Positions 3,694 to 53,440 of a DNA stretch of 64,000 nucleotides are shown here, one piece after another. Both the position numbers and the translations under genes were made by a program. The DNA is from Gracilaria vermiculophylla. Lineage: Eukaryota > Rhodophyta > Florideophyceae > Gracilariales > Gracilariaceae. Below the pieces are notes generated by a model, which saw nothing but the letters and a program-made list of their open reading frames with translations, did no database searches and was not told the DNA's origin. How positions within the stretch are numbered: the stretch's first letter is position 1; each line of letters opens with the position of its first letter. The stretch covers positions 6,071-70,070 of the forward strand of contig JAHNZQ020003148.1 of NCBI GenBank assembly GCA_019155205.2, written 5' to 3'.

Positions 3694-3713
3694 GCTGTTC
3701 AGATAGACAATAG

Positions 3714-4405
3714 CGTCCCATGTCCATGTTTGCATGATGACCCCACTCCATCATTTCCTGCCTCTGCTTATTTGTAGATCTTGCTGTTTTTCACCACCCT
3801 TACAGACAACGTTACACTTTTCCTACGCAGTCTCGTGTGTGCTATTATGCCCACTGCCTATGGGGTTCCTTCTTGATGGATTTTTCACAAACAAGTATTC
3901 CTTAGGTTCCCCAGTGTGCCAGTTATTGGATTTTTACCTTTAGTTACGGCAAATACCTTGCTGACGGATCATTTCCTTGGTTACCAAGCGCAAACTGACG
4001 TTTCCTGGTTAAAACCAAGCGCCACAGCACCCCACATGACCCACATCATGGCGGCAAATGCACAGACTTACGTAGCGCACACGCCATGCGCGTGCCACGC
4101 GCGTGCAGGACACGCACTTGTCAAAAACGAAGCAGAACCAAGCGCAAACGGGGGTTGCAAATCTAGATTTTTCATAATTGCGCTTGGTTTTTGGGCCGAA
4201 CTTGATTTGCATTAAATTTAGCCAGAAATTGACAATGTCGAAAATTACTCATATGCAACGCGCAGCGCTTCGTCGCCTATTTGCAGTACAAAAATCCTAC
4301 ATACAGTGATTGCACCACAAAATCAACGTTTCCTGTCGGAACCGAAAGCTAACTTACGCTCCACAAAACCAGGCGCAAACCCATACTCCGGATGAACACT
4401 ATTGT
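3714..4405 (+). repeat. Dispersed ~690-bp repeat, copy 1
   Basis: This is collinear with 27358-28050 at roughly 80% identity by eye, from the shared start AGCGTCCCAT to the shared end near CGAGTGAACAC. It contains GCGCTTGG motifs in inverted orientation and a GC-rich semi-palindrome of CGCGTGCC words. A diverged piece recurs near 5031-5130. Short ORFs inside it track the repeat and have no recognised domain. Confidence 0.8.
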
Positions 4406-10196: not shown

Positions 10197-10963
10197 GTAC
10201 ACTATACACCCCATTTACTCATTCTCAAGAAGCATCCGGAAAAATACATACGAGCCATTCGCGATCTCGAGAACTGAAAGCGGAAGGCCATCGAGTTAGC
10301 ACCATTATAACTTACGCATGGGTAAGCATTTCGTACAGTCTTAATCCTATTCGTCACACACTCATGCAAATGCAGTTGATAAAGGCAAATGGATGGGCCC
10401 CCCGCACTCATGCAATGCGTGTCATGCATACACATACGTCCCCCACACACCCCCACGCACGCACGTCAAACACACCAGCGCATCAATGCGCACACAAGTC
10501 CTACCGGTACGAATTCGGTGCTCACACACTGAATTGTACGCAAGTTTGCTCCAAGAAACACTTTCATTACAAAGTTTTCTACATGCTTGTTACATGCCCG
10601 CAAACACGTTTGTCACAAAAGTGCAGAGAGGCACCATTTGCATACACACAATCGCCTTCTGCGCATGCACGCCCATGCCACTTGCGAATGAGAGAACGCC
10701 ATTATCATTCATCCTGTCAACGTTTCTCCAATGTGCACCATCAAATTTATCAACATCCACATACAGGTGGGTTTCATATCCACTTGTTCTTAGTGACGTC
10801 AGGTACGCAGCACGTACGCAGCACATAGGCAAGCAAATCATGCATACACAGACATGTGCCATACTCGAGCCCAAATGTCGTAGTTTTTTCTCCATTTCAG
10901 AACGAAAGAATTCCTCCTCCATATGGAAAGAAACAAGTTCTTCCTCAAGTTCAGCTCGGATTA
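10197..10963. other. Intergenic, no supported gene
   Basis: A long open frame crosses this interval but starts inside the DUF829 relic, is rich in Thr, His and Ser, and has no domain. CA-rich stretches near 10430-10500 are low complexity. Confidence 0.5.
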
Positions 10964-13017
10964 TTATTTTTCTTCTTTTCTGTCTTCTTCGATTACGTTT
11001 CTACGTCTCTTCTTCCCTCCTGACCGCACCGAGTGTATCTTAATGTGCTTCTCCGCCTGAACATCACACATTCTTCGACTGATTTCTGCACTCTGTTCAT
11101 CAACGCCGCTTTTCGATGTGGACATAAGTTGCCTTGTACTCCGTACTTTCGCTTCTTTTCTTTCCTTCCCAACTGCTACTCTCTGTCCCTGACGTTGACC
11201 CGTCATTTCATTTTTCGTTACTATGGAGTCCCCCATGCTTTTTCGACCTTCATCATTTGCATCGAGTTTGTGCACAAGTCGGTTCTGGCGATTTACTTCT
11301 GCATCCCGCAGATCGCAAAGGTTCAAAGAAAACTTAATGGGCCTTCCAATGAGTTCTTCATATCTATGGAAAGGGATGTCTTCTACTGTCCGCTGCGTTC
11401 CGTCGGGTAGACCCATCATTACCTGCCCTTCATTCCCAAGCTCTTTGTTTACGACGTCTTGCTCTCCTGCGTACTGGCAGTCTATTCGTAGAATGGAGTT
11501 GTCTTGATACAATTCAAATAGTGATGACTTTCCTGGTAACATGTCGTACATTCTCTCTACCAGACCCTTCCGAAACTCATTATTCAATTCAAGGTTAAGT
11601 AGAGACGGTATGCACCCCATAACATACCCATTACTTTTACAACGTCCCTTAGTGTCCAAAATATCAATCTCTTGCAGTTCTTCAGCTTCTAGGAATCCCA
11701 CGGTCTCACCCTACTCCCACAGCTCTCTGACATTCCCATATAGATCACGATGATAAAACGCATATGGTGTTCCGTTCAACGTCTCCGCAGTAATGATGCA
11801 CACAAATACTCAAATTGCAAGAGTGTTGTGTCCCCCAATCCGCAATGCAACCGTACTTAGTAGCAGGATGGAAGATCCCACGGTGAGAAACATTGTCCGG
11901 ATAGCGTTCTTATCCTTTGGATCCACTGCAGCAGCATATTTGTAATAGTAGCCTTCTTTCTCTCTCTGGTTTGTAAAGCACCCTACAATTTTCTCTGTCG
12001 CTGTCAATAAAACCCCCGCTTCGTCCATAGCCTCTTCTGATATCTCCCCTTCAAGGGAGGGAAGGATTGTAAATAAAACAAAGCTCCCTGATGTTTTAAG
12101 CCCTGTTGAAGTATATGCATTTGGTTCCCACGCCTCCCATGCTTTGCTACTGGTTAGAGGCACTCTCATATTCTTCGAACGAATCAGTCCGCGTTTCTTA
12201 TTAACACCAGCTACAATGGAGCTGTTGTTTACGATACGCAGGAAATCTCGCATTCCCCCATTCTTGGGTATCCGGATACCGAACAGACAACAGATATTGG
12301 TTACGAAAGCCATGTCATCTCCCATTGGGGAATCTATGTTGTTATTCACGCCCGTCTCTTTTGGCAGACCGTGTCGCAAAACAAGGCAAAGAATGTGTAA
12401 ATACGCGACGAACATAGATTCGAACAAGGGGTTGGACACTTTCTTATTTTGTATGATGTACAGTTCCGAATCAATTTCAAGACCGACGTAGTCCTCTTCC
12501 AGACCTATCATGCATTGACAGGAGGATAAGTATACCATAAATTGTCTCTCATCTTCACTCATCTGTGTGAATTGTGCGAAACTACATATCTCCCTGTACG
12601 ACAACTCGAGAGGTACCATCCAAAATCCAGATCCGCGTGTAATTCCTTCGTAATATGCCTTTCTGGAACCATATGTAGCGTTAAGAGAGTCCCATGTAAC
12701 CCTATCACGAAGTTCTCGGTCATCGCCCACAGTAAACACGCCGCATTTAGCCGTTCCAAATCGTGAAACCATGAGAACCACTTCCAAAGAAACGACCTGA
12801 AAACTATTTGACCTCGATAATGGAGTTCTTCAGAGTTCTGCTTTTTACATGGCCTCCAGATGCACTTCAAACGCTTCAAAGCCTTTGGTACAAGCATAAC
12901 GATCGTGATCCGATGGCTTAGTCTCTCACTTGTTCTTGCAATTTTGGATCCGCCCCGTGGGAAGGACCACCAGAGAATAAGAACAAGATACATAAAAAAG
13001 ATCTCCCTTTTGACCAA
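10964..13017 (-). pseudogene. Unknown membrane protein gene with in-frame TGA and TAG
   Basis: An N-terminal piece from ATG 13017 has a hydrophobic signal-anchor (FFMYLVLILWW). After a frame change near 12790 the frame continues from about 12787 to 11810, ending with a strong transmembrane helix (SSILLLSTVAL). Beyond the TGA at 11810-11812 the same frame stays open through clearly protein-like sequence (AFYHRDLYGNVRELWE), meets TAG at 11711-11713, and continues to 10964 with a charged, Lys/Arg-rich tail. I read it as one gene with a luminal or extracellular domain, a C-terminal TM helix and a cytoplasmic tail. No family was recognised. It could also be two genes. Confidence 0.5.
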
Positions 13018-13923: not shown

Positions 13924-14988
13924 TTGTGCGGCCAAGTTGGTCGCCACGAGGAACCACACTTTTATCTGTAAGGAGCCCAACCGGAGGTACAAGGGGATTG
14001 CGCCGAGGATGGTCAGCGCTCGTCGCGACGCATCGCGTACCGTCGGGAGCTTGCCAGTCCTCAAGGAGCCGAGAGCAGACCGCGGGAGCACGTCGGCGTG
14101 CATCAGATTGGGGCCAGCTCCGGTATCGAAGATAGCGCGCACCGAGGTGGAGGCGAGCGAGGAACATCCTATAGGGGCGAATACCTTGTAATTCTGAGGG
14201 AGGAGCGTGCAAAAAGAATCCTCAAAGGTGTCGAATGGGTCCAACGGGATTAGGGGGCCCGCCGATTCGGCGTCGACACAGCAGACGGCCTCGCCCCCTT
14301 TCCTAAAGGCGACCTCCGTGGAGCCCAGGCTCGGTGTTTGGAGAGCCACGCGGAGCCTCTACGCGTGGCTCTGAGGGTTTTCCTGGTTGGAGAGGGGCTA
14401 ATTTCCAGGGGTGGACGGCTGCTGCGGTTGTGTATCGCGATGCGACGTGTTTCCTTGACGTGCAACCGACTGGGACACTGGCACCTTTATTGCGGGTTCC
14501 AGTGACAGTGAGACAGGCTGCACTCCCGGTGGAGGACGTTAACCGTAAGTTCCTTGCGGGGAACGGATGTCGCGATACGCGGTTCGATAATGTCCGCTCT
14601 CCGCTGGTGTGTCCTTCAGGTCCTGAAAGTTTTTCTCTCTTTCCTGTAGGATGGCGGCCCTCATTGCCGGGGTGAGAGTCGTACAGTGTACGGGCTCTCG
14701 TGACAAGCAAATCCTGCAAGGCGGTGGGTAGCCTCGAGAGTTCGCAAATCTGACGCTTCTGTACGATCCTGCGGAGGCGTACGAAGTGGGAGACGAGGGT
14801 GTCCTCGTCCTAGACGGTGCTGCCTGAGAGGAGGCGTATGAGAGGGCAAGGGCCTCTTGCTCTCCTACGAGCGTGAGCTCGTCGACTTCCTCCGAGGTGC
14901 TGGAGTCCAACGGCAGGGTGGATGCCCGACGGGGTCTTTGAGGCGGCCGGTTTGTCCGAAAGTGGAGCATGACTGCGGCGAGTGGCAC
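13924..14988 (-). pseudogene. pol fragment: linker and retropepsin of copy A
   Basis: The frame shifts relative to gag. It first encodes a Ser/Pro-rich linker with PPPCRICLSREPVHC, then an aspartic protease domain with FDTGAGPNLMHADVLP. The active-site triad DTGA is intact here, whereas copy B reads DTRA. The frame ends at the truncation point of the element. Confidence 0.75.
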
Positions 14989-16633
14989 GGTGGGTGTCCC
15001 CGTAGGATTCCGCGAAACCTGCTAACTCCGAATAGGTGGTCTTTGGGTGCGTGGTCAAGTGATCACGCACCCTTGCGCGTATCGAGGGAAGGAGTCCCTC
15101 GACAAACAGTGACTTCAACCGCCGTTCGGAGTACACATTCCCACATCGCGGAGCCTTCGTCCACAGCTTCTGTGAGAACTCCTTCTCGGTCATTCCGGGG
15201 TTCTGCCTGTAGGAGGGGACTTCAGCATCAGCATCGGCTATCATCTCGTCCGTGGCGTAACTGCTAAGGAGGAAATTGACTACCTCCGAGTACGTCTTCA
15301 AGATCTCCGTTCCAGGATCATCCACAATTGTGCTCTCCCCCCTGAGGCGCGGCTGCACCAGCGAACGCGCTTGGCCAGTGAGGTAGAACTGAAAGCACCA
15401 TACGGCGGCACCTTCATGGACACCATTGGTGTTACACGCCAAACGGAAGCGCGTAAGAAAATTCAACACCGAGATGGGGTCTTTGCCTGAGAAGGAGTAC
15501 TTCGTCATTTGAATATCCATACGGCGCTGCATCTTCGTGAGTCGTTTAGCGACCGACGCGTCGTACTGTGTGGAGCGATCATTCAACCTGTAGGTGTCAT
15601 AATCCACCACTTTGGCGAGGAGGTCGTTGAGCGGGACGACCTTCCTTACCCTTCTGCTTTTCTCCTTGGCAGGTGTACTGTCCTCTGAGCTAGAGCTGTT
15701 GACGGCTTCGGAGTGTGAGCTTCCCTCCGAATCGATGTCTCGCTTTCTTCTTTTCTCCCTCCTTTTCTTTCTCCTTCTTTCCTTAAGGTGGTCTGGGTTG
15801 CTGACGATACCCCCGATATCGCGATCCACCCGAGGAGTATCCTGTCCTTCTCTCCTTAGGTGGACTTCGTCGCGACCGGTATCCTGTCCTCCTCCGCGGG
15901 GCGTCAGATCCAGACGGTGCATAGCAAAATTCCTGAGGTGGTCCCGTTTCTCTACGACAGTATCCTTTTCTGCTCTGGCGTAGGGGGTGGCAGTATCCTT
16001 TCCTTCTCTGCCCGGGATCACCTTAGGTGTTGATAGAGGGAACCTCTCCTTTACGGATGAATAACTTTGAAACGCCACTGCGGGGAGCAGCTGCGCGGTT
16101 TGGGAGCGAACCTCCGCACGGATAACATCTGAGATCACATCAAGGAAGGTATCGGAATCCAGCAAAGCTTCCACAGCACGGTGAGCGCTCTCCGATGCAA
16201 TGTCCTCCACCAGGGCGTGGCGGCGCGCTTCGCAGTGGGCTTCAACACCTGCAGGTATTCTTTTGACCAGCTCTCGAGAGAGCCAATCCGTAAGGCGCGG
16301 AGCCAGGGACTCCAAGAGGGTGCTAGCCTCCGGGTGTTCCCGTCCCTGCAGCTCCTGAGGTGGCGGCTGCGATGCCGTGTGCGGTTCTTCAACCTCCACA
16401 TCGGCGTTCTCCAGAGGTGTCGCGGGGAAATCAGCTTGCCTCCGACCATGCATTCTCCTGAGGCGATTCCTGAAACGCTTTACAGAGGAGCCAGGATTCC
16501 GAAGGAGACTTTCAGGGTCCTCCATCGTGGCGGCCATCTCCTGGAAAGCGCTGCATGTGCTGCGCCCACCAACGGGGCTGGATGCTTGAGGATCCTGTAG
16601 GGGGGTTTCCATGGGATGTTCTGAGGGGTCCAT
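14810..16633 (-). CDS. gag: Retrotransposon Gag, intact ORF (607 aa)
   Basis: A single uninterrupted ORF from ATG 16633 to TAG 14810. It has an acidic N-terminus, a coiled region, a Lys/Arg/Ser-rich low-complexity middle (RRRKKRREKRRKRD) and a capsid-like retrotransposon gag domain (about residues 370-540) containing DPISVLNFLTRFRLACN and GAAVWCFQFYLTGQARSLV. Gag packages element RNA into virus-like particles. The copy B homologue has in-frame stops, so survival of this ORF in an element with no pol is notable. It may be young, or retained for some host use. Confidence 0.85.
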   Translation of the reverse strand: MDPSEHPMETPLQDPQASSPVGGRSTCSAFQEMAATMEDPESLLRNPGSSVKRFRNRLRRMHGRRQADFPATPLENADVEVEEPHTASQPPPQELQGREHPEASTLLESLAPRLTDWLSRELVKRIPAGVEAHCEARRHALVEDIASESAHRAVEALLDSDTFLDVISDVIRAEVRSQTAQLLPAVAFQSYSSVKERFPLSTPKVIPGREGKDTATPYARAEKDTVVEKRDHLRNFAMHRLDLTPRGGGQDTGRDEVHLRREGQDTPRVDRDIGGIVSNPDHLKERRRKKRREKRRKRDIDSEGSSHSEAVNSSSSEDSTPAKEKSRRVRKVVPLNDLLAKVVDYDTYRLNDRSTQYDASVAKRLTKMQRRMDIQMTKYSFSGKDPISVLNFLTRFRLACNTNGVHEGAAVWCFQFYLTGQARSLVQPRLRGESTIVDDPGTEILKTYSEVVNFLLSSYATDEMIADADAEVPSYRQNPGMTEKEFSQKLWTKAPRCGNVYSERRLKSLFVEGLLPSIRARVRDHLTTHPKTTYSELAGFAESYGDTHRATRRSHAPLSDKPAASKTPSGIHPAVGLQHLGGSRRAHARRRARGPCPLIRLLSGSTV

Positions 16634-16789
16634 AGAGGAGTAGGTCGGGGGTGATTTGCTTTCACATCCGGATCACCTTAAGGAATAATTCCACTGCTGG
16701 GGGTTGGTCGTTGCAAACTAGAAACACGGTTCTGCTGCGACTTGTGCGAATCCTTTAGGAACTGTGACTTCTTAAGTCGGGAGACCAGT

Positions 16790-17343
16790 TGTGGCACTGT
16801 CAGCCCTTCTGTCGAGGTAGTAAAGCACATCGTCCTTTAGGAGTTTTTGGTGACTCCAAAGGCGCTTATTCGTAAAGGTGGGCTCCGGTATCCGCTGTCG
16901 CGAGCCGGGGGAATTCTTAAAGGGGATCCGCAAACACCAAGCGGAGGGGGAGCTTCACTGGGCGGACAATGCTCCTACAGGCACTGCTATGATGCGACCT
17001 GAAGATCGGCGGCTTAGAAACCTGGGTGAATAGACAAGAGACTCCAACCGGAAAATGTAGAAGAATACTCAAGGATGCTTGTCTTTACCTCCCCAGAGGT
17101 GGAGCTCAACCGGCAGATTAAGTATCAAGCCGGGAGCCCGCCTCGGCAGGTCTCGCTACTGTGCTAATCACTTGCATAAAATATCTAAAATAAATAATTA
17201 TTCTACCGCACCTCAAGGATACTGTAGCGCACGCGGGCGAGATTATGCACCACGTGGCCCAGCTAATAAACTACGAACCATCCTCAGGAATATTATACCC
17301 TAAGGCCAAACCCCCATATTTCTGTAGGAGCCACTGTACTACA
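16790..17343 (-). repeat. LTR of copy A (554 bp)
   Basis: On the minus strand it starts TGTAGTACAGTGGCTCC and ends GTGCCACA. The length equals both copy B LTRs. Just inside it, after two bases, is the same TGGTCTCCCGACTTA primer-binding-like word as in copy B. Confidence 0.9.
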
Positions 17344-17498
17344 ACCGTGATCTCAGCCCTAGTACAAACAAGCCTTCCACCCCCTTGCTTTCTAGTTTTG
17401 ACAAGCACAAATGTCACCGTGTTTCTTATGGTGTGCTAAGGGTTCTTGGCTCATGGGATGCCTTCACCTGATTCCTTGGGTTTCACGACGCCCAATAT
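17344..17498. other. Short spacer upstream of the methyltransferase-SET gene
   Basis: No feature is seen. Any promoter of the methyltransferase-SET gene would lie here or in the neighbouring LTR. Confidence 0.4.
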
Positions 17499-19908
17499 AT
17501 GGTGCAATCGCACATTTTTTTCAATGTGGACAGCCTACAATTTGAGGTTTTGAAAACTCGGAACGATGTATTTTCACCCCTCTCCCAAAAGTCTGCCATT
17601 CATGCCTTTATCAAAGCCTCTACGGACCCCTCTCTTATTTCGTCGGTCGCTTTGGAACATACCCCGCAAGTTGATGATGCGCTTTGGGCCCTTGCTTCAG
17701 AGCTTTTCGGTGCCATTACGAGCATTGTCTCTCATCCACGACTCTTTGAAGTGAACTTGGGCCCATGGCAGTTGCTCCAAGAGTTGCTTCCAGACGACCA
17801 ACCGAGAGATGTTCTCCCGCCCTCCACTGGACGACGCTCGTTTCCGCAAAGATTAAAAACATTTTCCCCAACTATTTGGATTCCGGTACGCGATGCTCTC
17901 TCTCTTTTACGTCAAGATGTTCAAGAAGTCTCAGCTACTGGTGATGCTGTTGTTGCTTCTACATCAACCTCTTCGAAGGCGAAGAGAATTGAAATCATTG
18001 ATCTGCACAATGATAGTACAAGCGACGGGAGCAGTCACAGTGCTCAAATCGAGAGTTCTACCCATCTCGGCCGCGAGCAAAGCAGCTCTGGTCCCCAAAG
18101 TATCACAGGGGTCACGGACACAGCTTCTGCAACCTTTTTAAAATTCCCTTATCATAGGGAATGGGCAGAAATCATTCCACAGGGAACTGACATCCCCGCA
18201 AGTGTTTTAAACGCTATAGACTTGGTGCACAAGGACATGATGAAAAACTATGCCATGCACTGATGTGAATTTGTGGATCTCATTGACGCCTCCAACACCT
18301 TGCGTGATCAGGACTCCGTCTCGTTCTTTCAAGCACAATTAATTCTCACTGATCCGCCATATGCAATTCGTTCTACTCGGGTTCGTCCGAATTGTACGTA
18401 TGATGTCCTAACTGTTGCAGCAATGAAACAGGTCACAGAGACAATCAGTCATTTTTTGCGTGCTGGAGGTCACTTTATCATTTTCTACTCTTTGGAACAG
18501 TTTCCGCAGTGGGCGAAACTTTTCCGGACCATTGATCGGCGAGAAGCAGACGAAAGTCTTACACCTATGTTTCGCGTCAATGGGTGCCGGTTGCATACGA
18601 TTCGGGCGCCCGGTAACAACACCACTCCGCCAGGCACTCATTCCTATTGCCCAGTACGCCGTTCATGGAGTTCGAACAGGGGTCAAGCGGGCTCAGGAAC
18701 ACAAGATAGTCAACTATACTAATATAAGTTACATACCGTCTACCATCAGTGCCTACAAAAATGTGATTGATCTTGTTCCCCCTGTCAAAATAAATGAACA
18801 TCTCATGTGGTACCGATACACAAAGACACATGATGTAACTCGGGAACCTGTTTGTCCAGAGCAAAAGCCCATCAGTCTCAACATGGAACTTATTGCTCGC
18901 TTTTCACACCCCGGCGATACAGTTATAGAAATTTTTACTGGAACTTTCTCAACGGCTCTTTCGTGCATGTCCTTCAAGTGTGGGGAGACTTTCAAGTTTT
19001 TATGTAGCGAAATGGAAAATGCCTGCTTTGACCATGCAAAACACCAAGCTATCAAGCTATTTTCTCGCTTGATTGCCGATAATGTGGCGTTTGTTTCCGT
19101 AACACAGGGACTGGTTGATGCGGCAAATGTAATCACAACCTACTTCAAGAAATACATTCGCCCATCTAGGACATGGACTGCTGTTCCTGGCTTCCCCCGG
19201 TACCAGAAATTCCCTCAGCACATCATCTCTTTTTGCGCCTCTGAATGGAACGACATGCAATTCGTTTCCGCAGGCAATGAATTGGAACGGTCCAGATGGC
19301 CAGATAAGTATCAAGGCCCATTCAATCTCATGGAAGTTCCAGAACTCAGAGCCATGAAAGCATCCTCCCTACGCCTTGTCGTGGCGCAGTCTACTGTTGC
19401 GCATCCTTCCGCGGGGCTTGGTGTGTTTGCAAACAGCACTTTTGCCCAGCACGACACCGTCTGCTACTTTAACGGAACGCTGGTATATCATGATATGTCT
19501 CAGCAAACCGAAATCCACAAATCATATGGTTCTGGCATTATGGTCGTTACAACTCAAGAGTTTCGCGCTTATTGCATGCAAGTGGATGTCCAGGGTCTTG
19601 ACTAATACCCGCTTGTCGGTTTAAATCAGGGCAAAAAACGGAGAAGCCTCTGGATTTCCCCGGCCTGGTTGTGAGTCGGAGGGTTTATTAACGATCCGCG
19701 CTACCTTTTGGATGATCCAGATTTCCATGCAGTGCAGGACGGCTTCAAACCTCGAAGAAGAGCCAATGTTTACATTGATCGTTCTTACACACCCACTCTG
19801 AGAAATAGAAGACAACTTGAACCGTGCGCTTTACCTAAAGTGAGAGCTTCTCGTCTCATTGGACGCGGTGGTGATCTTTTCATCGAGTACGGAAATGCGT
19901 ATGACTGA
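17499..19908 (+). pseudogene. DNA amino-methyltransferase (DPPY type) fused to SET domain
   Basis: The ATG at 17499 opens an unassigned ~250-residue head. The catalytic DPPY (motif IV of N6-adenine/N4-cytosine methyltransferases) is at 18351-18362. Motif X/I lies downstream, ending in PGDTVIEIFTGTFSTAL (about 18910-18960). This IV-before-I order is that of the beta class, which is mostly prokaryotic and viral. A SET-like domain follows: GLGVFANSTFAQ, then FINDP at 19684-19698 in the place of the FINHS motif, then GDLFIEYGNAYD at the end. SET domains methylate lysine. The frame has TGA 18261-18263, TAA 19603-19605 and TGA 19672-19674, and one frame change near 18600-18640. I infer a dead, or interrupted, epigenetic-modifier gene of mobile origin. 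DNA versus RNA target cannot be told. Confidence 0.7.
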
Positions 19909-21217
19909 AATAAAAATTTGACTCCAACTTCTAAATCTTAAAAACATTGGGCCCCTTTCTTTTTCCTATGTTATAATCCTTTCTTGCCTCTTACTCATTC
20001 ATAAAGTGCTTTTATAACATATGTATTTCAGTATAACACCGACCATCTCTGTATCATACTTTTCTTCACATGTCCTGTACGTCGTTCGCGTTCACCCCGA
20101 CCTATTTTTTATTACACTAACTCTACAAACGTCAGTTACAATGTCTTTGTATGTGGTTAGGTACATAATTCATTTCCACATCCTTCTTTCAGTGCATATT
20201 CTTTCCCTAAACCCCTAATCTTTATACAACTCCATAGAATATGGCATATTTGTTCGTTTTCTATGCCAGATCCGAGTTTCCATTGCATTTTGTTCCGTCA
20301 AGCGTTTTTCATGGCTTTCCATTGTACTTTTTATTCCGTCCCACGCGTCTTCCATAGAGCAACATTCTTACAGCGCTCAGAGCTCACGTTCAGCAAAAAT
20401 ATATATGCCTCATATGTTCCATTGTATATATTATCATGTAGACATATCGGTCTCTTGTGCTATATCCATACTACACATTCTGTTTGTCCATCTTTTCTAT
20501 ACCTTCTCATTGCATTCATTCTAACCCTTTTAGGCCACCCATTCAAATTGAAGCACCGTTTTTCTAAACCCCTGACCCCAAGCGTATAACCGCTTGTACT
20601 GAGAGTATACTTTGCAAAATATCCGGTTCAATATCCCCAAAGCTACAGTACATCACCCACTGCCCCACAGCTCTTCCAACACATCTATTTAGCTTTGTGC
20701 ACACAGTAACACCCGCAAGGCGCAGTGAGGCTCAGAATTCCACAGCTGTATGCCAAGAGCTCTCATTCTCCGATCTTATTCGCCTCCCGCCATTCTTCCA
20801 ATTTCGCACAATGTAACATACATTCCCCCTTTCTCCATGATACACATGCACTATGTACTGGCCTATGATCCCGAATTCTCTACAGCGAGTGTACTTACAA
20901 GCGTTTGTAGTGACGTTTACTTCTCGTAGCCACCGGATTTCTGTTCCTGCACCCCCCTCTCTCTGCAGCCTTTTTATTGCGAAATCAACGATTTGTGCAT
21001 CCTGCTTTTTCTCGGAACTTTTGTGTTTGGCAAACTATCGTTTTTTATCAATTTTCTTCCGCTCTGCACCTCCATCTCTCCTCTTGTGGTTGTTTCTCAC
21101 TTTTCTGCGGCTCTTCTTTCTTCTTACCAGAGCTTTTGTCCTCTCCTTCTGTTTTTCATCTCCTACCTCCTCGGCCGCGTACTTTAAGGTCCTTCTGTAT
21201 CTCTCAGAACTTCAAGT
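19909..21217. other. T-rich spacer between methyltransferase-SET and helicase genes
   Basis: No coding feature is supported. It is pyrimidine-rich on the plus strand and has two short telomere-like CCCTAAACCCCTAA words at 20205-20220 and near 20563. Confidence 0.5.
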
Positions 21218-24200
21218 ATGGACAGCAACAACGGTTTCCAGACTTTGAATGCAGAATGTGACTTTAATACCGCCCAAGTAATGTCTACTTCAATCATCTC
21301 TTCTTCCACTACACCAAAGTTGCCTCCCGCTGCCGATACTGTTTCTCCCATTACGACAGCTGTTACTCACGGGCTCAAAATTGGCGTCCACTCTGTTGAT
21401 TTTTTCATTGTGTGTGTTCCTTGTGAGTGTGGTATACGGTCTCTTCGTTCCCTCCACTATCATCTCAAAACGAGGCATAATATTCCACCGGAACATGCTC
21501 ACAAAACCGCTGATAAGGTATGGACAAAACGAACCGCAATGCTGAACACCCAGCCTCCCCACCCGATTTGGAACGAATACAACCCGGACTCTCCCTCTAC
21601 TTCTGCTTCGCTTCTACGCCCTTTGACGAGCCTGCGTATGAAGACGGGTTATTGCTGCCCGAGTTGCATTACCTGTTATATTGATCTGCACCGTCTCTTG
21701 GACCATATAAGGTTTTCTCATTCCTAGATTGACCGTTCGGCAGAGTCTCTTCACCATCAAGCGACACACCAAGGCACAGTGCGTGTGCAGAGCATATTCA
21801 GTGGACCTCGCCGTCTCCTCTTTGGAGTCACCTCTCATCCCCCCCTTGGATCAGTTACTGATATATATCCGATTTCCCCGACGTCGCTTTCATGTGCACC
21901 AGCGCCAATCCCCCTTCAGAGTCCTCGCCAATCCATCCTCAATACCCTTCAGGAACCCACCCCTCACTCCCGACTTCGTGACTTACTCCCTTCCCCTTCT
22001 CATACCTACACCATATCCCCTGTTAACACAGCAGCGGAGAGATTATTGAAAACACTCTCTGCCACCCTTCAGGAATCTACGGATTTCCTAATGACAACGC
22101 ACAACGCCAAAAGTGGTCCCAAGATTTTCCTTTCGTGCACAAAACTCGACTCCATCCCCTCTTCTCTCTCAGTCGACCTTCCCCAAGCATTTTCTCTTGC
22201 GAATTCTTTCGATCCTGTGGAAGGTGAAACACTGCAGACAACTGCTTCGCATGTTGTAGCTTAGCTATCAAATTTGCCCCGTTTGATGTGTGACATACCA
22301 CCTTTCTTTACGCAAACTCTCAACCAACGATCATAAACCAGCTTTCGCACCGTCTCCGCCCAGACGCAAAAACGGTATGCCATGGACATTGCACGTCTAC
22401 TTCTCTTCACCATGAAAGGGCACACCCATGGTGCATCTGTCGTATCTGATGCAGAGGCCTGCGTGACCTATTTTGCTGAGGGTACCCCAAATCCCCCAAA
22501 GTTGCACATTGCTTTTTGTGCCCAGCTATTAAAGGTGCTCCATCTGTATGATTCAACACAAGCTCTCACCGTCCAAACGTTTATTGCCTCAGCTGCCGTT
22601 ATAAGTCACAACCTTGGGAAAAACGGGGAAGACGTCATTCCTAAATACCGCTTTGCAACAGCCGACGAAGTAACGCACCTACTAGCCGCCCTCCACTACG
22701 CCGTGGCTGCTTGTGCAATCCACCATGTACACGTTCTTGCCAATGGTCGAGACATGGACTCTGAAACTTTGTCGGTCGAGATGAAACGCGTTCAAAACTC
22801 CGTTGACGTTCAATCTAACAACGCCTTTTCGTATATACGAAACACTCTCAGCTTTGCAATGAGTGTCGCTTCAAAGGAGAGCTTGAACATTTCGTTTCTC
22901 GCTTGTGATTTGCATGCAAATTGCGGCATAGTGCGTGATATTCATTTGGCGCTGCCAGCTCTCGGAACAATCGTAACTGCATTGCCTACGGAAATTGAAG
23001 ATATCCTTTTTGATTATCTTCTTCCAGGTTGTCCGCTACTGCCTACGTTTAAAAGCGAAATCCTCTCTCTCCGCGACGAGCCGTCAAATACAACACCAGG
23101 ATTTCCTTTTCTACATCACCCGCAAAACCAACGTTTTCTACAACTATAGATACAATACGTACTACAGTGCTTAATATCACCTTCCGGGAGAACTGGAAAC
23201 CAGTCTTTGGAAGCCCCTTCTCAATCATCACGTCGAGGTGCCACCACGTTTGCAAGAGGTTTTCTTTTTTATACATCGGCACTCACGCGTTGGCTCACTC
23301 GTGCCAAAAAACGTCAAGAACGCTTGCTCGTCACTATGCATCTGGCATTCGGCTACCCAGCTTGTGGAATGGAAATCGAACCCTGTCGTCTTCACAACGA
23401 TAATTTCCACCAGCGCTGTCTATTGCTCATTGACTCCCAGCCGGTGCTGATCACGAGATACCTCCAAAACCAAAATACGAAGGGGAGCGCTCAACCTATT
23501 CAACGCTTCCCGGATTCGGAGACTTGTAAGATACTACTAACTTCCATTACATTCATCCGCCCTTTGGAAAAATGCTTCTTCTCCGCTCTTCACGGGCCTC
23601 AGAGGAAACAACGACATTGGAATATGTTGTTTTCATCACATGGAGTACCTTTTGACGCGAAAAACATCCGTCGAATCGTGGCTTCCACACTTTCCGACTC
23701 TAGCTTTAAGCTCAGTTTTGCGGACTATCATCATTTCACGGCGGGCATCAATGCCGTATTAGCCTCGAATGCCGCTTCAGGTTTTGAGAATACGATCTCC
23801 AATTCGATTTTGGATGACTTTGTATCTACCGCTCACAATCAGGCCGGCCATTCTGCTCATACCGCTGAGTTTTTGTACGCCCGTACGCACCACGACGTTC
23901 GAGGAATTCCCCAAACCGAACTGAGCGATTATAAGAAGTGGTCATCCACATGGCATTCTCTACTCCATTTGAAAATATCTACATCTACGTTGAAACGCTC
24001 CGCAGCTTATGCGTCTGATGTTGTGCTCCAGATGCCGCCAAACAAACTTGCTATATCAACAACCAGAGTAAAAGGCACAGCCCTACGCTCGGTCTCTCCT
24101 ACGTATCCCGAGCATGTTAGCTTGGGTCTCAACTCCCCCCTTCTACAAACCATTCCCTTGTCGCACAAACTCCCTCTTGGCGGTGCTGTCCTTCATCATC

Positions 24201-26551
24201 CCCCTCCCTTCACATACAAACATGTCCTGCAAATGTTTTTGACGGCCCTCCGACAAATACTCAACTGCCGCACTTCTGTTTTCAAATCGCATGTGCAATT
24301 TACCGTTACGGCAGCCGTCGTCGAAAAAAGAGAAAGTATGCAAATTTTGACACCAACAGCATCTGGAAAGACACTATCCGTTATGCTTCCGATGTATATG
24401 GAAAAAGGAATGTACTCCTCAATTATTATTGTTCCACTCAAGGCCCTCACTACCGAATACGAGCAACGTTCGTCTTCGTTCAACCTCACTAGCTCCACAT
24501 CTCCAAAAACATCAAACGGTGACGAGGATTTTGTCAATGTCTACATTTTGGCAGTGGAATGGACCGGCTCAACGGCGTTTACTTTGGTGGTTCAACGCTT
24601 GCTGCACCGCAACAGGCTGGAACGCATTGTGAGCAACGAAGTTCACTTGTTCCTCTTATGGGAACATTTCCGTCCAGCACTTGCAAACATTCACACAGCA
24701 CTGTCATGCGTACCACCCCATATTCCGCGCATTCTCCTAAATGCAACAGTGTCACCTCGTGATCGTCCCCTCCTGCTATCTCAACTGCATATATCTCACG
24801 CATTTCTACACAACAACTCTACGTCTCGTGTCCACATTCGTTTCTCTGTGTTCCACGCCTCCCCGACTGCAGCCACCCCTCGCCTTCGAACAGCTGACGG
24901 CACTTTTTAGAGTTGCTTCCAGCATCTGCTGCACACTGGGTTTCCATTTTTCCAGCAGCAGCTCAATGAATTGCTTTCCACCAACAATGAAACTACACTA
25001 CGTATTCTAATATTTGCCCTCACGAGATCTGATACGGAGCAGCTTCAAACGGTGGTCCAACATTATGCAGCTTCAACCCCGGCAAATGCATTCCCTTCTG
25101 CTTCGTTTATATGCCTCTTATATCATGCCGGATTGCCAGAAGCTTCGAAATCACAATCCCACTCTTCATGGCAATCCACTTACAACTCTTCTTCTACGCC
25201 ACGGGCTACGAGGTCAATCAAAATCATGGTGTGCACTTCCGCGTTTGGCACAGGACTTGATACACCCAGTATACGTCTGGTCATTCTCTTTGGAGGTTGC
25301 GCGAGTTTACCGGACTTGGCACAGCAAGCAGGTCGGGCCAGCCGTGACGGCCATTCAGCAGATTGCATTGCTATTTATTCAAAACCTTACTTCAAAGCTG
25401 TTCAGGACCTGCTCTGCTCGTCAACCCACCAAAACCCAAACGATAATGTGCGGGCTTGTAATGACTCTTTGGCAGCCCTGCGTTTGAATGAAGTCCAAAG
25501 CTGGATGGAACTAAATGGTTTGTGTCACCGTAACGATCTCTTCGTCATTCTTGATGGCAAGGGACCTGGCCTATGTCTATTCACTGCTTCTGCTCGGAAC
25601 TATGATATCTGCGAAACTCTTTCTGCCGCCTTAACTCCATTCTCTCCCAATGCCATTCAATCAGTGTCAACTAAAAAAACACCATCTCAACAGTCCGTTC
25701 CGCTAACCCCACCTCCACTCCAACAACCAGAACAACAAGCCTCCTCGCACCCGTCCAACGAGCTGTCTTCGTTGGATATGCATCTGTTGGAACAGATGCC
25801 TCAGCTTCCTTGATACAACCACAACATCTCGAGTACGCCTTTTCAATCGCAAGCCTTAACACTAGCTTTTCCAAAACCATTCACGAGTTCGGAGCTTCAA
25901 CCTCTTTCCCCACATCCCCAGTTCACTAATCAATTATATCCTCAAGAGAGTGGAGGGTTCTAGCCCAACTCAAACAAATCATCTTCAATGTACTTTTGAC
26001 AAAACGTGCTCCCAGCTTCTCACGTTTTGAAACATATTCAGGATTTGGCTCGCCGTCTGCGTAACGTGTGCGTTCCGTGCATCGTCCTCACACTAACACC
26101 AGCTACGAAGGTTAACCACACCTGTTTCTACGCCGCCAATCGCTGCTTCCGATGCTTTTCCCCGAAACACCGAGCTGCAACATGCCCTCATAAGTCCAAT
26201 GGCCGAAACACTTGTCACAAGTGCCACATGGGTTACTTTAAAAGTTTGGCAACCCATTCTCAACTGAACACATTTGGTACACGAGAATGTAAATTCATAC
26301 CGCTGTGTGAACTTGCATGGGTTCTATGGCACTCTTCTTCGGACATGCGTTCTTCTATTGCTGTGAACATTTTCTCCGAAACTCGAAACTCAACATTCAA
26401 TAACGCAATTAGCTCAAATGTCTCCGGCGCACGGTCTTCCCAAGTGCGTGACGCCCGTTTCCATTCATGGCTCACTGAATCGGATCCAAGAACAGTCCCC
26501 AACCACGACCCTTTCATGACTTGGTACAAATCCACCAAAGACTTTATTTAA
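21218..26551 (+). pseudogene. RecQ-family helicase with N-terminal C2H2 fingers and C-terminal CCHC knuckle; eight in-frame stops
   Basis: One frame runs 1778 codons from ATG 21218 to TAA 26549-26551. Two Cys/His fingers come first (CECGIRSLRSLHYHLKTRH, then CPSCITCY to HIRFSH), followed by a long linker. The helicase core has Walker A TPTASGKT (24350-24373), a diverged DEAH box SNEVH (24632-24646), motif III NATVSP, and motifs V-VI AFGTGLD and QQAGRASRDG (25322-25351), the RecQ signature. A classic C-x2-C-x4-H-x4-C knuckle is at 26144-26185. The order resembles fungal telomere-linked and zinc-finger RecQ-like helicases. Stops interrupt at 21725 TAG, 22262 TAG, 22334 TAA, 23147 TAG, 24908 TAG, 25811 TGA, 25961 TAG and 25997 TGA, yet the frame never changes. 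I infer a decayed element-borne helicase. Confidence 0.8.
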
Positions 26552-27357
26552 ATATTTGTTGTATCCACATTACATATAATAAATTTTTGACTGTTCCTGT
26601 TTTCCCCTATCTATTCGTTTTGAATCTTCCTGACCGCATACGCTGCACGATATTGATAGCTGATGCTTTCCAAATTATGCTTTTTTGAACGTTACAAGAT
26701 GTGAACAGATAGCTTGAGTTCCATTTCTTTCCGTAAATTGCATTCCATGCTAAACGCATAACTGCGTGAGATAAAACAAATTTCGAACAGCTTTATACCA
26801 GATTACTACCTTCTTGAATGATGAAGTTAACGTAATATACTTTCCTCCCCATCACCCAATTTCTTCATTTACTCTTTTTCATTGCCTTTTTCTCTAAGTT
26901 TAGTTTCTACAAATATTTGATACAAATGTTATTTGTCAAAGTACTACGTTCTTTCCATTCCTATTCATTTTTTCGATGTAGATCGTTGCATATTCCAATC
27001 TTCGAATATACAACCCTCCTCACTACGTTTCGTTTCTTTATTTTTTCAGTATCTGAATTCTATCTATGCGAGTTCCTTTACTTGCCTTTTAGTGTCATCA
27101 ACTATTCATTTTTTTCCTCGTTCCCCAATGTTTTTTTGTTATATACGTTCCTCAACTCTGGGTGATTATCGCACTCTATTTTTCAGCACCACAACCCTGA
27201 AGACAATCGCGCTTTCCCATTTTCTATGAACTCACTAAATGCAGAAATATCGCTATTCTTTATTACCGTTCGCCAAGTTTTGCTACACGTCTCCTTATTC
27301 TTGATTCATTTTTTGTATGTTACAAATTTGAAATCCCGGGCACTACGTGACTTTTTT
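26552..27357. other. AT-rich intergenic DNA
   Basis: Only short Phe/Ser-rich frames of the kind expected from T-rich DNA. No gene is supported. Confidence 0.5.
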
Positions 27358-28050
27358 ACTAGCGTCCCATATCCATGTTTGCATGATGACCGCACTCCAA
27401 TATTTCCTTCCTCTATTTATTTGTAGTTGTTGCTGCCTTTAACAACCTTACAGACGATGTTACACTTCTCCTACGCAGTCGCGCGTGTGCTATTGATGCC
27501 CACTGCCTATGGGCACCTTATTGATGGAATTTAAACAAACAATTATTCCTTATCTTCCCCCACATGGCAGTTACTGGATTCCTGTCTTTTGTAACGGGAA
27601 ACCCCTTGCTGGCGGAACATTTCCTTGGTTCCCAAGCGCAAATTGACGTTCCCCGGTTAAAACCAAGCGCGAACACACCGCACATGACCCAGGACATAGC
27701 GGTATATGCACAGAACTACGTAGCGCACACGCCGTGCGCGTGCCACGCGCGTGCAGGACACGCGTTTGTCAAACACGAAGCAAAACCGAACGCGAACGGT
27801 GGTTTCAAATCTAGATTTTTTTTAATAATTGCGCTTGGTTTTTGTGCCGTTCTTGACTTGCACTTAATTTAGCCAGAAATTGACAGTGTTGCATTTTAAG
27901 CATATGCAATGCGAAGCGCATGGTCGCCTCGTGGCGGTACCAAAATCGTACATACATTGTTTGCATCACCCAATCAACGTTTTCTGTCGGAACCAGGAGC
28001 TAACTTACGCTCCACAAAACGAAGCGCAAACCCATATTTCGAGTGAACAC
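27358..28050 (+). repeat. Dispersed ~690-bp repeat, copy 2
   Basis: Direct-orientation partner of 3714-4405. Its right end runs straight into a fragment of a second RecQ helicase copy, which suggests the repeat belongs to the same mobile family as that helicase. Confidence 0.8.
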
Positions 28051-28071
28051 CACATAAGGGATTTGCTCCCC

Positions 28072-28300
28072 AGCTTTTCCGTCATGTATTCAATAACTGT
28101 TGAACTGCAACAAACTGGTACGAATCGTCTATGACAAAGCTTACTTGTTTCTCTAATGGAACCAGTTTCTTCCAGAGCTTGCAAACATTCATACAGCCCT
28201 GTTGTACATAGCGCCTTATAGTTTTCGCCTCCGTTGCAGTGCTTCCATGTCTCCTCGCAAACTTTTTCATTAGCTATCTCAACCGCATGTTTTCCACGCA
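28072..28300 (+). pseudogene. Fragment of a second RecQ-like helicase copy
   Basis: The translation aligns with 24575-24805 of the large helicase: RIVYDKAYLFL-stop-WNQF against RIVSNEVHLFLLWEHF, then ELANIHTALLYIAP against ALANIHTALSCVPP, then SASMSPRKL against NATVSPRDR. It covers motifs II to III. Two in-frame stops are present. Its YDKAY keeps the Asp of a DEAH box that the large copy has lost. Confidence 0.75.
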
Positions 28301-30878
28301 CATATATTCACGACCTAAAACTGACGTGTCAACATTCTATTTTCCAACTTTTACGCATCCCAAAGATCTGAATCACCACGCATTCGAAGAGAAGCCATCA
28401 ACCATTTGATAAGCAAATCCCCGAATTATCGTTGAATGAATTTTAGCTTCTGGGTGTTTCCGACAAAAACAGGTTGACTTGAGTTAGTTTTTAATAATGT
28501 TGGATTTTTTCCGGATGTCGCAGTTCCATATTAGAGATGTAGTTGATACTCCCCACTTCAATTCTAATATTTTCTGTGGCAGATGCATATAAAACAATAA
28601 TTTGTTTTCATACCAAAAGTATTGCACACGTCATTATATCTCCGAAACTTCAATATGTTGATGTAGTCCCGCTCTAGTCAGAAATATAATTAGTTTCGAG
28701 AAGAAAAACAAAATGAACACTCTGTTGATGAAAGTGACTATGAAGCATTTCTTTGATACCTGTACAGCTTCACAAACTCCCAAAGATATTCAAACTCTTG
28801 CATCTTACTGCAAAGATATTCAAACGTTGTACTTTTGGTGAAGAAAGCTGATTTGTAAATTTTGAAACATTTTCTAGTAAAAAGGAAAGAAATTTTGATG
28901 GCATTTCCTTCGTGAATAAATTTAAATAATTTTGAGAAAAGACTAATAACTTTTATGCCACGAGTAAAAAATGAACTATACTTCGTACGTGTCCATTAGA
29001 TATTATAAAAACCCTGGTTTTGTATGATTTGAAAAACCCGTATTCAAAGCAGCTTAGACATAATCGACTTGTATTTGTTCTTCTTTTTAAAATATTTTGA
29101 ACTCATAGTTCGTCATCAGCAAAACTTCGTTTAGTGATGACATGCGCAAAGGTGAATCAAAAATATATATGTTAACAGTTTCATCAATCTTAATTAATAA
29201 TCTTTTTTTTCACCGTTTGGAACTGATCTTAACACTTTTAACCTGGTAATTATTAAATATTATCACGTTAAACGTCTTTAAGAATAATTGGAATATTCAA
29301 AAACATTCCACAAAACAATTAGAAATAAATAGTTAAGTGCAGACTCTAAATTGATTCTTCATCTTGAAAATTAACTTCAAAAATCTTTGGATATAAAAGC
29401 ATACCATGAAGTAAAAATAAAATTACTCATCATTTAATTTAGCAGCAAACCACAAATAGAAGTACTTTGTAATAAAAATGAAATGATTAGATTCAAATAT
29501 CATCATGAAAGAAAGCTGTGTAAAAATAATCGTTAAATATACTGCTTATTATTTATAACAGCCTCTAGATAATAAATATTACGAATGTAAAACTACACTA
29601 CTATTCTTTCATTTAATTAACTCACAGAATGCATAAATGAGATTTAGTATCAGCTTTAATAAAATGGTCTCCGTTTTTCAACAAACTGATCAGAAAAACA
29701 TTTAAGAATGATGTAGAGGTGAATAAGAACAACGTAAAAAATACAGAACAATCATAATTCTAAAACAACGTAGGTATGTATAAATGGGGGTATATAGCGC
29801 AATTATTGTCATGTATGTATTTATGAAATCTCTAATGCATCTCTGTATTGTTGATGATGGTTTTTCAAGAGATGAAGGTGTAAAAAAATATGTATATTTG
29901 TATTAGAAAAGCAAATCGATTTTGCTTTTGCTCCTGTGGGCACAGGTGTTCTGCATAAGAGACCACAGTCAAAAGATTACCGAAGTGCACGTGTATTTTT
30001 CAGTCAGCCATCGCATATTCTAAGATGTGTGGGGGACGGAGAAAGATCAAATTACTTTTTGAGAAAACTCATCTCAAACATAAACAAAGAATCTAAAATT
30101 AAAACCAGCACGATAGAAAGGTATGAACTGTATCACGGAAGAGAGAAGTGGGAAAAACAAACGCGGCAAACTTCTGTTTCCTGACAATGGTTTTAGAACT
30201 ACAATAAAGTTTCTCTCTCTTTTTATAGATAATGTTGGGTGCAAGACAGTCGGATTCCATGTCATTAAACTTAGGCTTTTAGGACTTGAGGGGTTGATTT
30301 CCCTGAAAGCAAAAATTGATAGACAACGACGATGAAAGAAGAAGCTCTCTGTATCATGTGTAGGAAAGAAACAGATGAATCAGCCCACTACTATAAGGTA
30401 GTTGATTTCTTGTTTTACAGACCGCAGGTATGTCAGGACTTCACTGATGGGACAGGACTTTACAATACATCCCAAAGGATTCGCTATCTGTTTTCCACAC
30501 TTCCATATCATCCTATACCACGTCTAACATTGATTTTGCACCACGTATAAATCGATGCAACAAGATTCAATGTGATGAACTAAAAGTGCCTTATGGGTTT
30601 GTCGGTGTGCTATAGAAGAGGGTAAAGCTTCTTAAAAAAAGCTATCATCATTAATCTGATGTGATTTGAGCAAGTGATTATTATTTGCTTAGATACATCT
30701 ATAATATATTGAGTTTCGTTTACATACGGGATCTATAGTTTCCGAAAAAAAATATTACAGTTGTTGACTTAAGGCTAAAGTGAGAATTATCTTGCGAAGT
30801 GACAAAATTGAAAGGTACCATCTGGAGGAAAATCAAAACTGTAAAGCAGTAAAGGATTAGAGTCTATACTGTTAGAAG
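28301..30878. other. AT-rich intergenic DNA
   Basis: Very AT-rich with few ORFs above 60 codons. The small frames at 29936-30550 have no recognised domain. Nothing is supported. Confidence 0.6.
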
Positions 30879-40858: not shown

Positions 40859-41797
40859 CAGGTCCGATAGACATTAGAGAGAAGTGGAGAACACGCAAGT
40901 TTGTGACAATGATGCGGAGCTTAGGCGTTCTCTTAGACCATTTACGCGGCTACAATGTTTATCTTGAAGGCTCTCCACACGACTGTTACTGTAGCATACA
41001 TATATTTCTAAATAACTACGCTCATTCCCAATAATACGTATTTTTAGCATCTGTAGACTCTCGATGCCTATAGCACTCGTCCAGATTGATGTCACCCTCA
41101 TTAGGTGCTCCATTAATAATACTGTATTTTTGGCTATTGAAACCGCCACATACAAAACGAAGAGCCAATATTTTGGTATTTCACATGCAACTGAAACTTG
41201 TGGCCGACTTGAATTTGAATATTTTCTCCACAAACAGTTTTTCGTCAAACGTTTATACTAATTCATTTCTTTGTAGGAGTTCCAGAAGCTTTTGAAACGC
41301 AATCAACTCCTAGATAATCAAAAGATATGATATGCAGCGTTTATCTATACGAGTACTTCAATCTTTGGCGTATACAAAACGTTTTAGAGCAAAAGGATGC
41401 TTTGCAGGTTTTTTTGGGTACAATCCGTTCTATTGAGAACCAATGTCAGTAACACAAGTGCCTCAGAAACTATAGAACAAGTAGCATACTTCTGGGCTCT
41501 CCAAAATATATTAGAAGTATATCTCTTGAGTGTTTAGGCGTACATCACAACAAAGACATTCCGGAAGCCCTTGACATTTCTTGCAGAAAATATTATTTTT
41601 TAGGCTGTGAGTATGACAAAAAAAACACAGTAGCGAACTTAGATAGTCTAAAAATATGTTTTAACAGCATTAATAAGCTCATCAGTTTCATCTACCGTAT
41701 AAAAAATACAACTTGGATTAGAGTAAAAAAAATTTTTTTTGTGGGGCAAAGAAGGCGTAATAGTGAGAATTGGGCCGTCATTAATATTCAGGTCTTT
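40859..41797. other. Intergenic, no gene supported
   Basis: A 124-codon minus-strand frame at 40874-41248 has no recognisable feature and is probably chance. Confidence 0.4.
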
Positions 41798-42349
41798 TGT
41801 AGTACAGTGGCTCCTACGAAATTAGGGTGGTTTGGCCTTAAGGTATAATATTTTTTAGGAGGGCTAGTATTTTATTGGCTGGGCGACGTGGTGCATAATC
41901 CCGCCAGCGTGCGCTACAGTACCCTTGAGGCACGGTAGAAGTATTATTTATTTTAGATACTTTATGCAGGTAATTAGTACAGTAGCGAGACCTGCCGAGG
42001 CGGGCTCCCGGCTTGATACTTAATCTGTCGGTTGAGCTCCATTTCTGGGGAAGTAAAGACAAGCACCCTTGAGTCTTCATCTTCTTTTCCGGTTGGAGTC
42101 TCTCGTCGATCAACTCAGGTTTCTAAGCCGCCGACCCCCAGGTCGCATCATAGCAGCGCTTGTAGGGGCATTGTCCGCCCAATGAACCTCTTCCTCCGCT
42201 TGGTGTTTGCGGATCCCCTTTCAGAATTCCCCGGCTCGCGACAGCGGATACCGGAGACCACCTTTAGGAACACGCGCCTTTGGAGTCAACAAAAACTCCT
42301 AACGGAAGTTGTGCTTTACTACCTCGAGAGGAGGGCTGACAGTACCACA
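41798..42349 (+). repeat. Solo LTR of the chromovirus family, plus orientation
   Basis: 552 bp from TGTAGTACAGTGGCTCC to AGTACCACA, flanked on both sides by the 5-bp target duplication TCTTT (41793-41797 and 42350-42354). It has no internal region, so it is the product of LTR-LTR recombination. Confidence 0.92.
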
Positions 42350-52535: not shown

Positions 52536-52672
52536 AGAGGAGTAGGTCGGGGGTGATTTTCTCCCACTTCTGAATCACCTTAAGGGAGAATTCCACTGTT
52601 GGGGGTTTGGAGGTTGCAAACTAGAAACACGGTTCTGCTACGACTTGTGCGAATCTTTTAGTAACTGTGACC

Positions 52673-52690: not shown

Positions 52691-52692
52691 GT

Positions 52693-53390: not shown

Positions 53391-53440
53391 ATGCAGAATT
53401 AGTTTTCTCTCACCTCGTTTTTCATACGTGAAGCGATCTT

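Follow-up and report, generated by a model that had tools for sequence, protein, structure and literature searches.

A decayed repeated unit near contig ends of a red alga carries a predicted DNA methyltransferase-SET fusion gene and a RecQ-like helicase gene

Introduction

Fungal telomere-linked RecQ helicases have a RecQ core, and their genes are subtelomeric and repeated. Helicases of the RecQ type have also been described in Academ DNA transposons (PMC3627910). Algal DNA transposons such as Sola1-1_Ec32 of Ectocarpus carry accessory genes for N4/N6 methyltransferases, and self-marking has been proposed for them (PMC12477816). Dinoflagellate and charophyte retrotransposons carry C5 cytosine methyltransferases (PMC5890265). 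For N4CMT of bdelloid rotifers it was reported that the methyltransferase (MTase) domain repeatedly evolved N6-methyladenine (6mA) or N4-methylcytosine (4mC) specificity (PMC8885841). Here we describe a repeated unit in a stretch of 64,000 nucleotides from Gracilaria vermiculophylla (contig C10, positions 6071-70070; hereafter the window), in which RecQ-A, a RecQ-like helicase gene, lies on the same strand as a predicted MTase-SET fusion gene. The original prediction, made from the letters of the window, had proposed a decayed large element that could mark its own DNA and chromatin.

The unit resembles Sola1-1_Ec32, an algal mobile element with an MTase predicted for 4mC or 6mA, but differs in that the Sola1-1_Ec32 MTase is joined to a ParB-like domain and a transposase is present, whereas here a SET fusion and a RecQ-like gene were found and no transposase was recognised (PMC12477816). 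The term "SET domain" is absent from the main text of that paper. A SET fusion in such an element was not found in the open literature searched, the coverage of which was partial, so that absence from print is not established. The statement that no described element has this set of activities needs qualification: algal DNA transposons with N4/N6 MTase genes, and a self-marking proposal for them, are already in print, so that the element is a variant on a known theme.

The retrotransposons with C5 enzymes are elements that could methylate their own DNA; here the enzyme is a predicted amino-methyltransferase, and no reverse transcriptase was recognised in the unit (PMC5890265). N4CMT shares with the present protein a permuted beta-class, bacterial-type N6_N4_MTase domain in a eukaryote and a C-terminal chromatin domain. 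It is, however, a host gene with a chromodomain (a reader) and separate SETDB1-like proteins, whereas here a predicted SET writer is part of the same protein, in a repeat (PMC8885841). As in Academ, a RecQ helicase is present, but the Academ transposase was not recognised, although no search aimed at it was made (PMC3627910). The likeness to the fungal telomere-linked helicases is one of description, and no match in two RecQ-A protein searches was named as fungal; the unit differs from them in its red algal host and its MTase-SET partner.

Results and discussion

Two genes in one repeated unit

The assembly searched comprised 44.8 Mb in 27 contigs, and copies are named by contig (C8, C12, C14, C18 and so on). 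The window copy of the unit spans 17344 to ~28053, its 5' part having been removed by a long terminal repeat (LTR)-like repeat. The following features were distinguished:

16790..17344 (no strand assigned), LTR-like repeat of 555 bases cutting off the 5' part of the unit; it also occurs at places away from the element
17344..18260 (+), N-terminal part of the MTase-SET gene, its 5' portion lost at the LTR-like repeat, closing at an in-frame stop; similar to the C8, C18 and C12 copies
18264..18640 (+), catalytic half of the MTase with DPPY; the C18 counterpart scores 35.2 bits against PF01555 (N6_N4_Mtase), over the cut-off of 26.7
18637..19100 (+), S-adenosylmethionine (AdoMet)-binding half; DpnA, CcrM and RsrI are PDB matches of the C14 copy
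19258..19908 (+), SET-like domain, interrupted by two in-frame stops; aligns along the full PF00856 profile (positions 1-105 of 105), under cut-off in the window
21218..26548 (+), RecQ-A gene, 1777 codons in a single frame from the ATG, interrupted by in-frame stops only
21400..21724 (+), N-terminal Cys/His modules, C2H2-like, from the subfamily alignment and weak Pfam matches
23336..23884 (+), tyrosine-recombinase-like motif block, at motif level
24317..25810 (+), DEAD and Helicase_C core, by Pfam on the window sequence
26144..26185 (+), zinc knuckle CX2CX4HX4C (CCHC), read directly
27360..28053 (+), conserved non-coding sequence of the 3' tail with the right end, which reads ...GATGAACACTATAATAAGAG in copies with less decay, from genome matches

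By aligning positions 16600-28200 with the fetched sequence of other copies (blastn), it was found that these genes belong to a single repeated unit. The SET-like domain ends at 19908 and the RecQ-A ATG follows at 21218 on the same strand, with 1.3 kb between them. This inter-gene stretch was homologous in C12 left (19100-22263, 88%), C12 right (19141-21699, 75%) and C18 (18107-21298, 82%), and was kept in C14 and C8 with one insertion and one deletion. The genome search gave eight MTase loci (13 matches merged), of which seven were fetched and a relic on C22 was left out. Downstream unit sequence followed on the same strand in all seven fetched copies, with RecQ-A coding sequence in six; in the seventh, only the 3' end of the unit was seen beyond a run of N. 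The C8 copy retained only the N-terminal part of its MTase gene. Several fetched RecQ-A copies had no visible MTase, mostly because their 5' part was missing or lay outside the fetched sequence. The proposed decayed large element was borne out as one repeated unit with a conserved right end, and the concern that its two genes might never be neighbours elsewhere was dispelled by these six copies.

At three other loci a further RecQ-type gene lay upstream of the MTase, namely RecQ-B, a diverged second RecQ, in C14 and C18, and RecQ-C, a third kind, at another C18 locus. No second RecQ-type gene was found in the ~8 kb examined upstream at C12 right. Between RecQ-B and the MTase gene, a repeat of ~235 bp was observed in two or three copies (C14 joined sequence 10850-11558; C18 joined sequence 53369-53600 and 54034-54271; also C8).

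The right end was located at 28050-28053. With a query that ran ~550 bases past this end, 19 of the 22 non-self matches covering the tail stopped at 28047-28062, the 22 excluding the self match and six matches to a RecQ remnant beyond. Seven of eight aligned end sequences carried ...GATGAACACTATAATAAGAG or a decayed form of it, and the sequence beyond differed; a diverged C8 repeat, in the eighth row, departs from this pattern. Poly(A) was absent at the right end in the end sequences aligned. The remnant lies just after the end:

28067..28387 (+), diverged RecQ remnant, 45% identical in amino acids to the RecQ-A open piece 23150-24907 over residues 474-580 of the latter

Since the window copy sits right before the remnant of another RecQ, the copies are nested. 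At the opposite side, 17344 is the border of the 555-base repeat and not the unit's own end, because the repeat occurs alone elsewhere and the C8 and C18 copies continue upstream with coding sequence. The MTase start previously set at 17499 was thus wrong, the gene being cut at 17344 by the repeat. No left border was visible except that of the RecQ-B gene upstream, which was seen in two copies.

The MTase-SET fusion

The MTase gene of the window carries three stops, at 18261, 19603 (TAA) and 19672 (TGA), and one frameshift near 18640. Its motifs could still be read: DPPY at 18351-18362, a motif-I-like GDTVIEIFTGTFSTALSC at 18913-18966, FINDP at 19684-19698 and GDLFIEYG at 19870-19893. DPPY precedes the AdoMet-binding motif I, which is the permuted order of the beta class, as had been claimed for this DPPY-type MTase; C14 reads VIDLFAGTFSTALAC. 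The N-terminal region is also common to the protein P0001 described below; the C8, C18 and C12 copies extend further upstream, and at least 130 further N-terminal MTase residues were present in the C18 copy.

In a sister copy in C14 the reading frame is open for 394 codons, between motif I and the end of the SET domain, and this stretch was over both Pfam cut-offs (N6_N4_Mtase 35.7 bits; SET 29.4 bits, profile positions 1-105 of 105). Its PDB matches were DpnA and CcrM (E values of 0.0009 to 0.006), RsrI (0.05) and, weakly, KMT2C (0.13). When 5.8 billion proteins were searched, two relatives, P0001 and P0002, were obtained among 7,992 scored candidates. P0001 is a separate relative (E 6.3e-103) of 982 amino acids in one unbroken frame, with N6_N4_Mtase at 49.7 bits and SET at 31.6 bits, both over cut-off; in P0002, of 724 amino acids, the MTase was recognised and the SET domain was not. 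Because both domains are carried by the C14 copy and by P0001, the predicted MTase-SET fusion is a real protein family and not a product of chance neighbours. The assignment of the putative SET fold rests on Pfam.

It was also observed that in C14 (~1555 in its sequence) and C18 (~3737) the N-terminal part of the MTase is gone from the same base, corresponding to window ~18108. C14 lacks 1.6 kb, and in the undeleted C18c copy that piece has GT...AG borders, as if spliced out; the piece is coding sequence in P0001.

The RecQ-A gene

Both helicase profiles were over cut-off in the window sequence (DEAD 8.9e-11, Helicase_C 3.3e-10), with TPTASGKT at 24350-24373 and QQAGRASRDG at 25322-25351, and the named proteins among 10 homologues were RecQ-type helicases. 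RecQ zinc-binding, RQC and HRDC domains were not found by Pfam at E up to 1, and the gene is therefore labelled RecQ-like. No homologue of the N-terminal half was obtained at E up to 0.01 among 7,986 scored candidates. The zinc modules predicted at both ends of the helicase fared differently: the C-terminal knuckle was read directly and recurs in RecQ-B as CFQCFSSHHRVSVC, whereas the N-terminal module was weak in Pfam (Zn_SUZ12 / C2H2, E 0.0015 to 0.3) and zf-CCHC gave no Pfam match in the window. The second N-terminal Cys/His group is invariant across RecQ-A, B and C; of the first, the cysteines alone are invariant.

All motifs named in the original prediction (DPPY, the motif-I-like block, FINDP, GDLFIEYG, TPTASGKT, QQAGRASRDG and CCHC) were present. 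Of the profiles it had put forward, DEAD and Helicase_C were over cut-off in the window, N6_N4_Mtase and SET in C14 and P0001 (the MTase also in C18), and zf-CCHC gave no match. Repeat-induced point mutation was considered, by eye, as the source of the stops and rejected: the five RecQ-A stops up to 24908 stand where relatives have Q, Y, E, S and Q, a pattern for which no single C-to-T rule accounts. Two further proteins, P0011 and P0012 (1,427 and 1,426 amino acids), have a RecQ-like helicase core, and P0011 alone showed a weak N-terminal methyltransferase match (PF13847, E 0.0048, under cut-off).

Past selection on both genes

The window copy was compared by codon with 11 others in 33 comparisons of gene parts, with bootstrap intervals and wrong-frame controls. 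The point estimate of the ratio of nonsynonymous to synonymous substitution rates (dN/dS) was below 1 in 33/33, and the whole bootstrap interval was below 1 in 16/33. In 24 of the 33, the true frame gave a lower ratio than either wrong frame (medians 0.68 vs 0.94). By gene part, intervals below 1 were obtained in 4/5 comparisons of the DPPY half (best case against C18c, 0.38 (0.27-0.53)), 3/7 of the RecQ N-terminal half and 6/8 of the helicase (best case against C18b, 0.49 (0.34-0.72)). The sole significant comparison of the motif I-SET part was that of the most diverged pair, with C12 right (0.47 (0.37-0.61)). These ratios argue that both genes were formerly under purifying selection, firmly for the MTase and the helicase and thinly for the SET part. 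Such a pattern, constraint before insertion and decay after it, is usual for element copies.

Genomic position and host

Match places of the unit numbered 52, made up of 21 RecQ matches, eight MTase loci and 23 right-end places (self included, the six remnant matches past the end omitted); the three lists overlap, so that one copy may recur, and the genome searches give lower bounds. With contig ends as a proxy for chromosome ends, 42 of the 52 lay within 120 kb of an end, a zone that makes up at most 14.5% of the assembly. The 10 internal places were confined to C14, C17 and C21, which are the largest three of 11 contigs compared and may be joined chromosomes. The 5' end of the unit pointed only outward at 11 of 14 contig ends, the reverse was found at two (C7R and C12L), and one (C18R) was mixed (sign test 0.011, one-sided, mixed end left out). 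Position and direction together fit either directional insertion or exchange of chromosome-end blocks. The telomere repeat was absent from the last 1,500 bases at the right end of C18.

The predicted subtelomeric, repeated setting agreed with this distribution, but the fungal context did not hold. The assembly yielded 11 phycobilisome-linker matches without stops and 10 light-harvesting complex (LHC) matches of the red type, for one of which the two best PDB matches were 9kc5 and 7y5e, the latter presumably from Porphyridium. Nuclear phycobilisome linker genes mark red algae, and with the red-type LHC genes they identify the host as one. The element appears to tie the MTase-SET fusion to the chromosome ends of a red alga.

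Proposed roles and alternative explanations

We consider the window copy to be a decayed copy of a repeated subtelomeric mobile or semi-mobile unit, whose proteins had the marking and copying roles outlined here, with a probability of roughly 0.55. The RecQ-type protein would bind element or chromosome-end DNA via its zinc modules, and would then, at chromosome ends, drive copying or recombination of the element. For DPPY enzymes of the permuted class 6mA is the usual product, and SET domains methylate lysines, often on histones. The DPPY enzyme would accordingly be expected to place 6mA (or 4mC) on element DNA, and the SET domain would methylate a lysine, probably of a histone. In subtelomeric chromatin, both marks together might ensure that the element stays tolerated, can be expressed or is recognised by the machinery it encodes. 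The certainty of these steps falls from the RecQ role through the DPPY and SET roles to the joint effect of the marks. The architecture suggests an element that could once mark its own DNA together with the chromatin around it.

Normally, separate host writers make the DNA and the histone marks, and they must find each other. It is a rather doubtful idea that here one polypeptide was both the DNA writer (6mA/4mC) and the histone-lysine writer, so that copies of the element at chromosome ends received a matched state from their own product and were copied there by a recombinase-helicase. A natural fusion of two writers, formerly selected in a repeat and unbroken in P0001, would offer a test of the coupling of both marks in cis; it bears on whether the chromatin state of selfish elements is of their own choosing, and on the route by which bacterial-type amino-methyltransferases entered eukaryotes.

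A number of results weigh against the mobile-unit explanation. No intact copy was present among the eight MTase loci found, and in the open reading frames (ORFs) of the unit Pfam named neither a transposase nor a reverse transcriptase nor an endonuclease. Of the conserved ends that the original prediction proposed to look for, the right one was found, together with the same gene order (6/7), but no left end could be defined for the MTase-RecQ-A unit. Neither a target-site duplication nor a terminal inverted repeat was shown, no systematic search for either having been made. The window sequence itself remained under both cut-offs, with N6_N4_Mtase at E 0.0013 (19.1 bits, cut-off 26.7) and SET, read through the stops, at E 0.035-0.12 (13.2-15.0 bits, cut-off 22.4). 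These weak scores are due to decay and not to absence of the domains, because the C14 copy is over both. The AlphaFold2 model of P0001 had a predicted local distance difference test score (pLDDT) of 32.5 and was unusable for judging the SET fold, as was that of the recombinase-like block (pLDDT 34.4) for judging the block. The putative activity, substrate and base (6mA/4mC) of the MTase-SET protein are assigned from family knowledge. In the codon comparison, 17/33 ratios were not significantly below 1, the interval was below 1 in only 1/6 for motif I-SET and 2/7 for the RecQ C-terminal part, and the wrong-frame ratios were noisy (0.47 to 1.78, with 38/66 below 1).

Some of these features could also be those of a subtelomeric duplication, in which a chromosome-end block, like those of fungal telomere-linked helicases and yeast Y', was spread by ectopic recombination or break-induced replication with the MTase-SET gene as a passenger. 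The location of copies near contig ends, mostly in one direction, is what exchange between ends would give, the 5' truncation agrees with terminal loss, and the lack of a Pfam-recognised transposase points the same way. Random exchange would not, however, be expected to make 19 of 22 matches stop at nearly one base with the seven ends read differing beyond, and the direction is reversed at C7R and C12L and double at C18R; duplication is thus a possible explanation, though not one we favour. A fixed 3' end with many 5'-short matches would also result if the unit transcript had been reverse-transcribed by the enzyme of another element, and the GT...AG borders, in C18c, of the 1.6-kb piece absent from C14 fit such copying through RNA. 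We regard it as unlikely: the right end has no poly(A), the missing piece codes in P0001, the GT-AG match is a single event that may be chance, and the outward 5' ends also account for 5' loss. No RVT match was obtained in the scanned unit ORFs, RVT_1 being found elsewhere in the window.

The block before the helicase raises another explanation, that of a tyrosine-recombinase element in which the block is a divergent recombinase and the RecQ protein a recombinase-helicase integrating a circle. Motifs of the R..E, DYR, AGHS and Y.AR type are hallmarks of tyrosine recombinases, and all four occur in the correct order in RecQ-A, B and C, although some copies miss residues; less decayed copies read SGSPARxTE, DYRxFTVG and QAGHSxxTAExLYAR, with the first arginine kept in one A copy, C7. 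A short AAGA overlap at the C18 junction would also suit integration. Against this, a PF00589 search of the genome matched other loci but not the RecQ-A block, Pfam and PHROGs scans of three RecQ family members named no recombinase, hhalign of the block against lambda Int, Cre, XerC and XerD gave scores no better than those of 14 decoys, and the structure model was of the low quality given above. The recombinase reading is therefore doubtful, and we treat the putative recombinase block as a lead only. The Phage_integrase matches over cut-off elsewhere in the genome were at C19:196057-196593, C17:2518574 and C21:1069412. Beta-class methyltransferases and SET proteins also occur in large algal viruses, as would be expected if the unit were the relic of an integrated large DNA virus. 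Yet 2.9 million viral contigs gave 30 and 36 pattern matches for the MTase-SET protein and the RecQ N-terminal half, none confirmed, with two peptide patterns per query and a reach of moderately distant relatives only, and of ten other ORFs in the window Pfam identified none as a virus structural protein; a viral origin seems highly improbable. Likewise, none of the 120 pattern matches obtained in the bacterial and archaeal genomes of GTDB was confirmed as a relative.

Other features of the window

Another copy of the unit is represented by its 3' end:

3711..4404 (+), 3' end belonging to a further copy, by sequence matches

Several copies of the 555-base LTR-like repeat, a reverse transcriptase (RVT_1) and gag-like ORFs (our own reading, with no Pfam match) were located at 48562-49290, 14810-16672, 51846-52574, 41797-42353, 43512-44071 and 52690-53247, and probably belong to a subtelomeric LTR retrotransposon family. 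A DDE_Tnp_4 transposase fragment was seen at 53441-54079. The regions 56336-57922 and 62610-63974 encode a SHAQKYF-type MYB and a DUF760 protein, which point to an alga or plant and are likely host genes.

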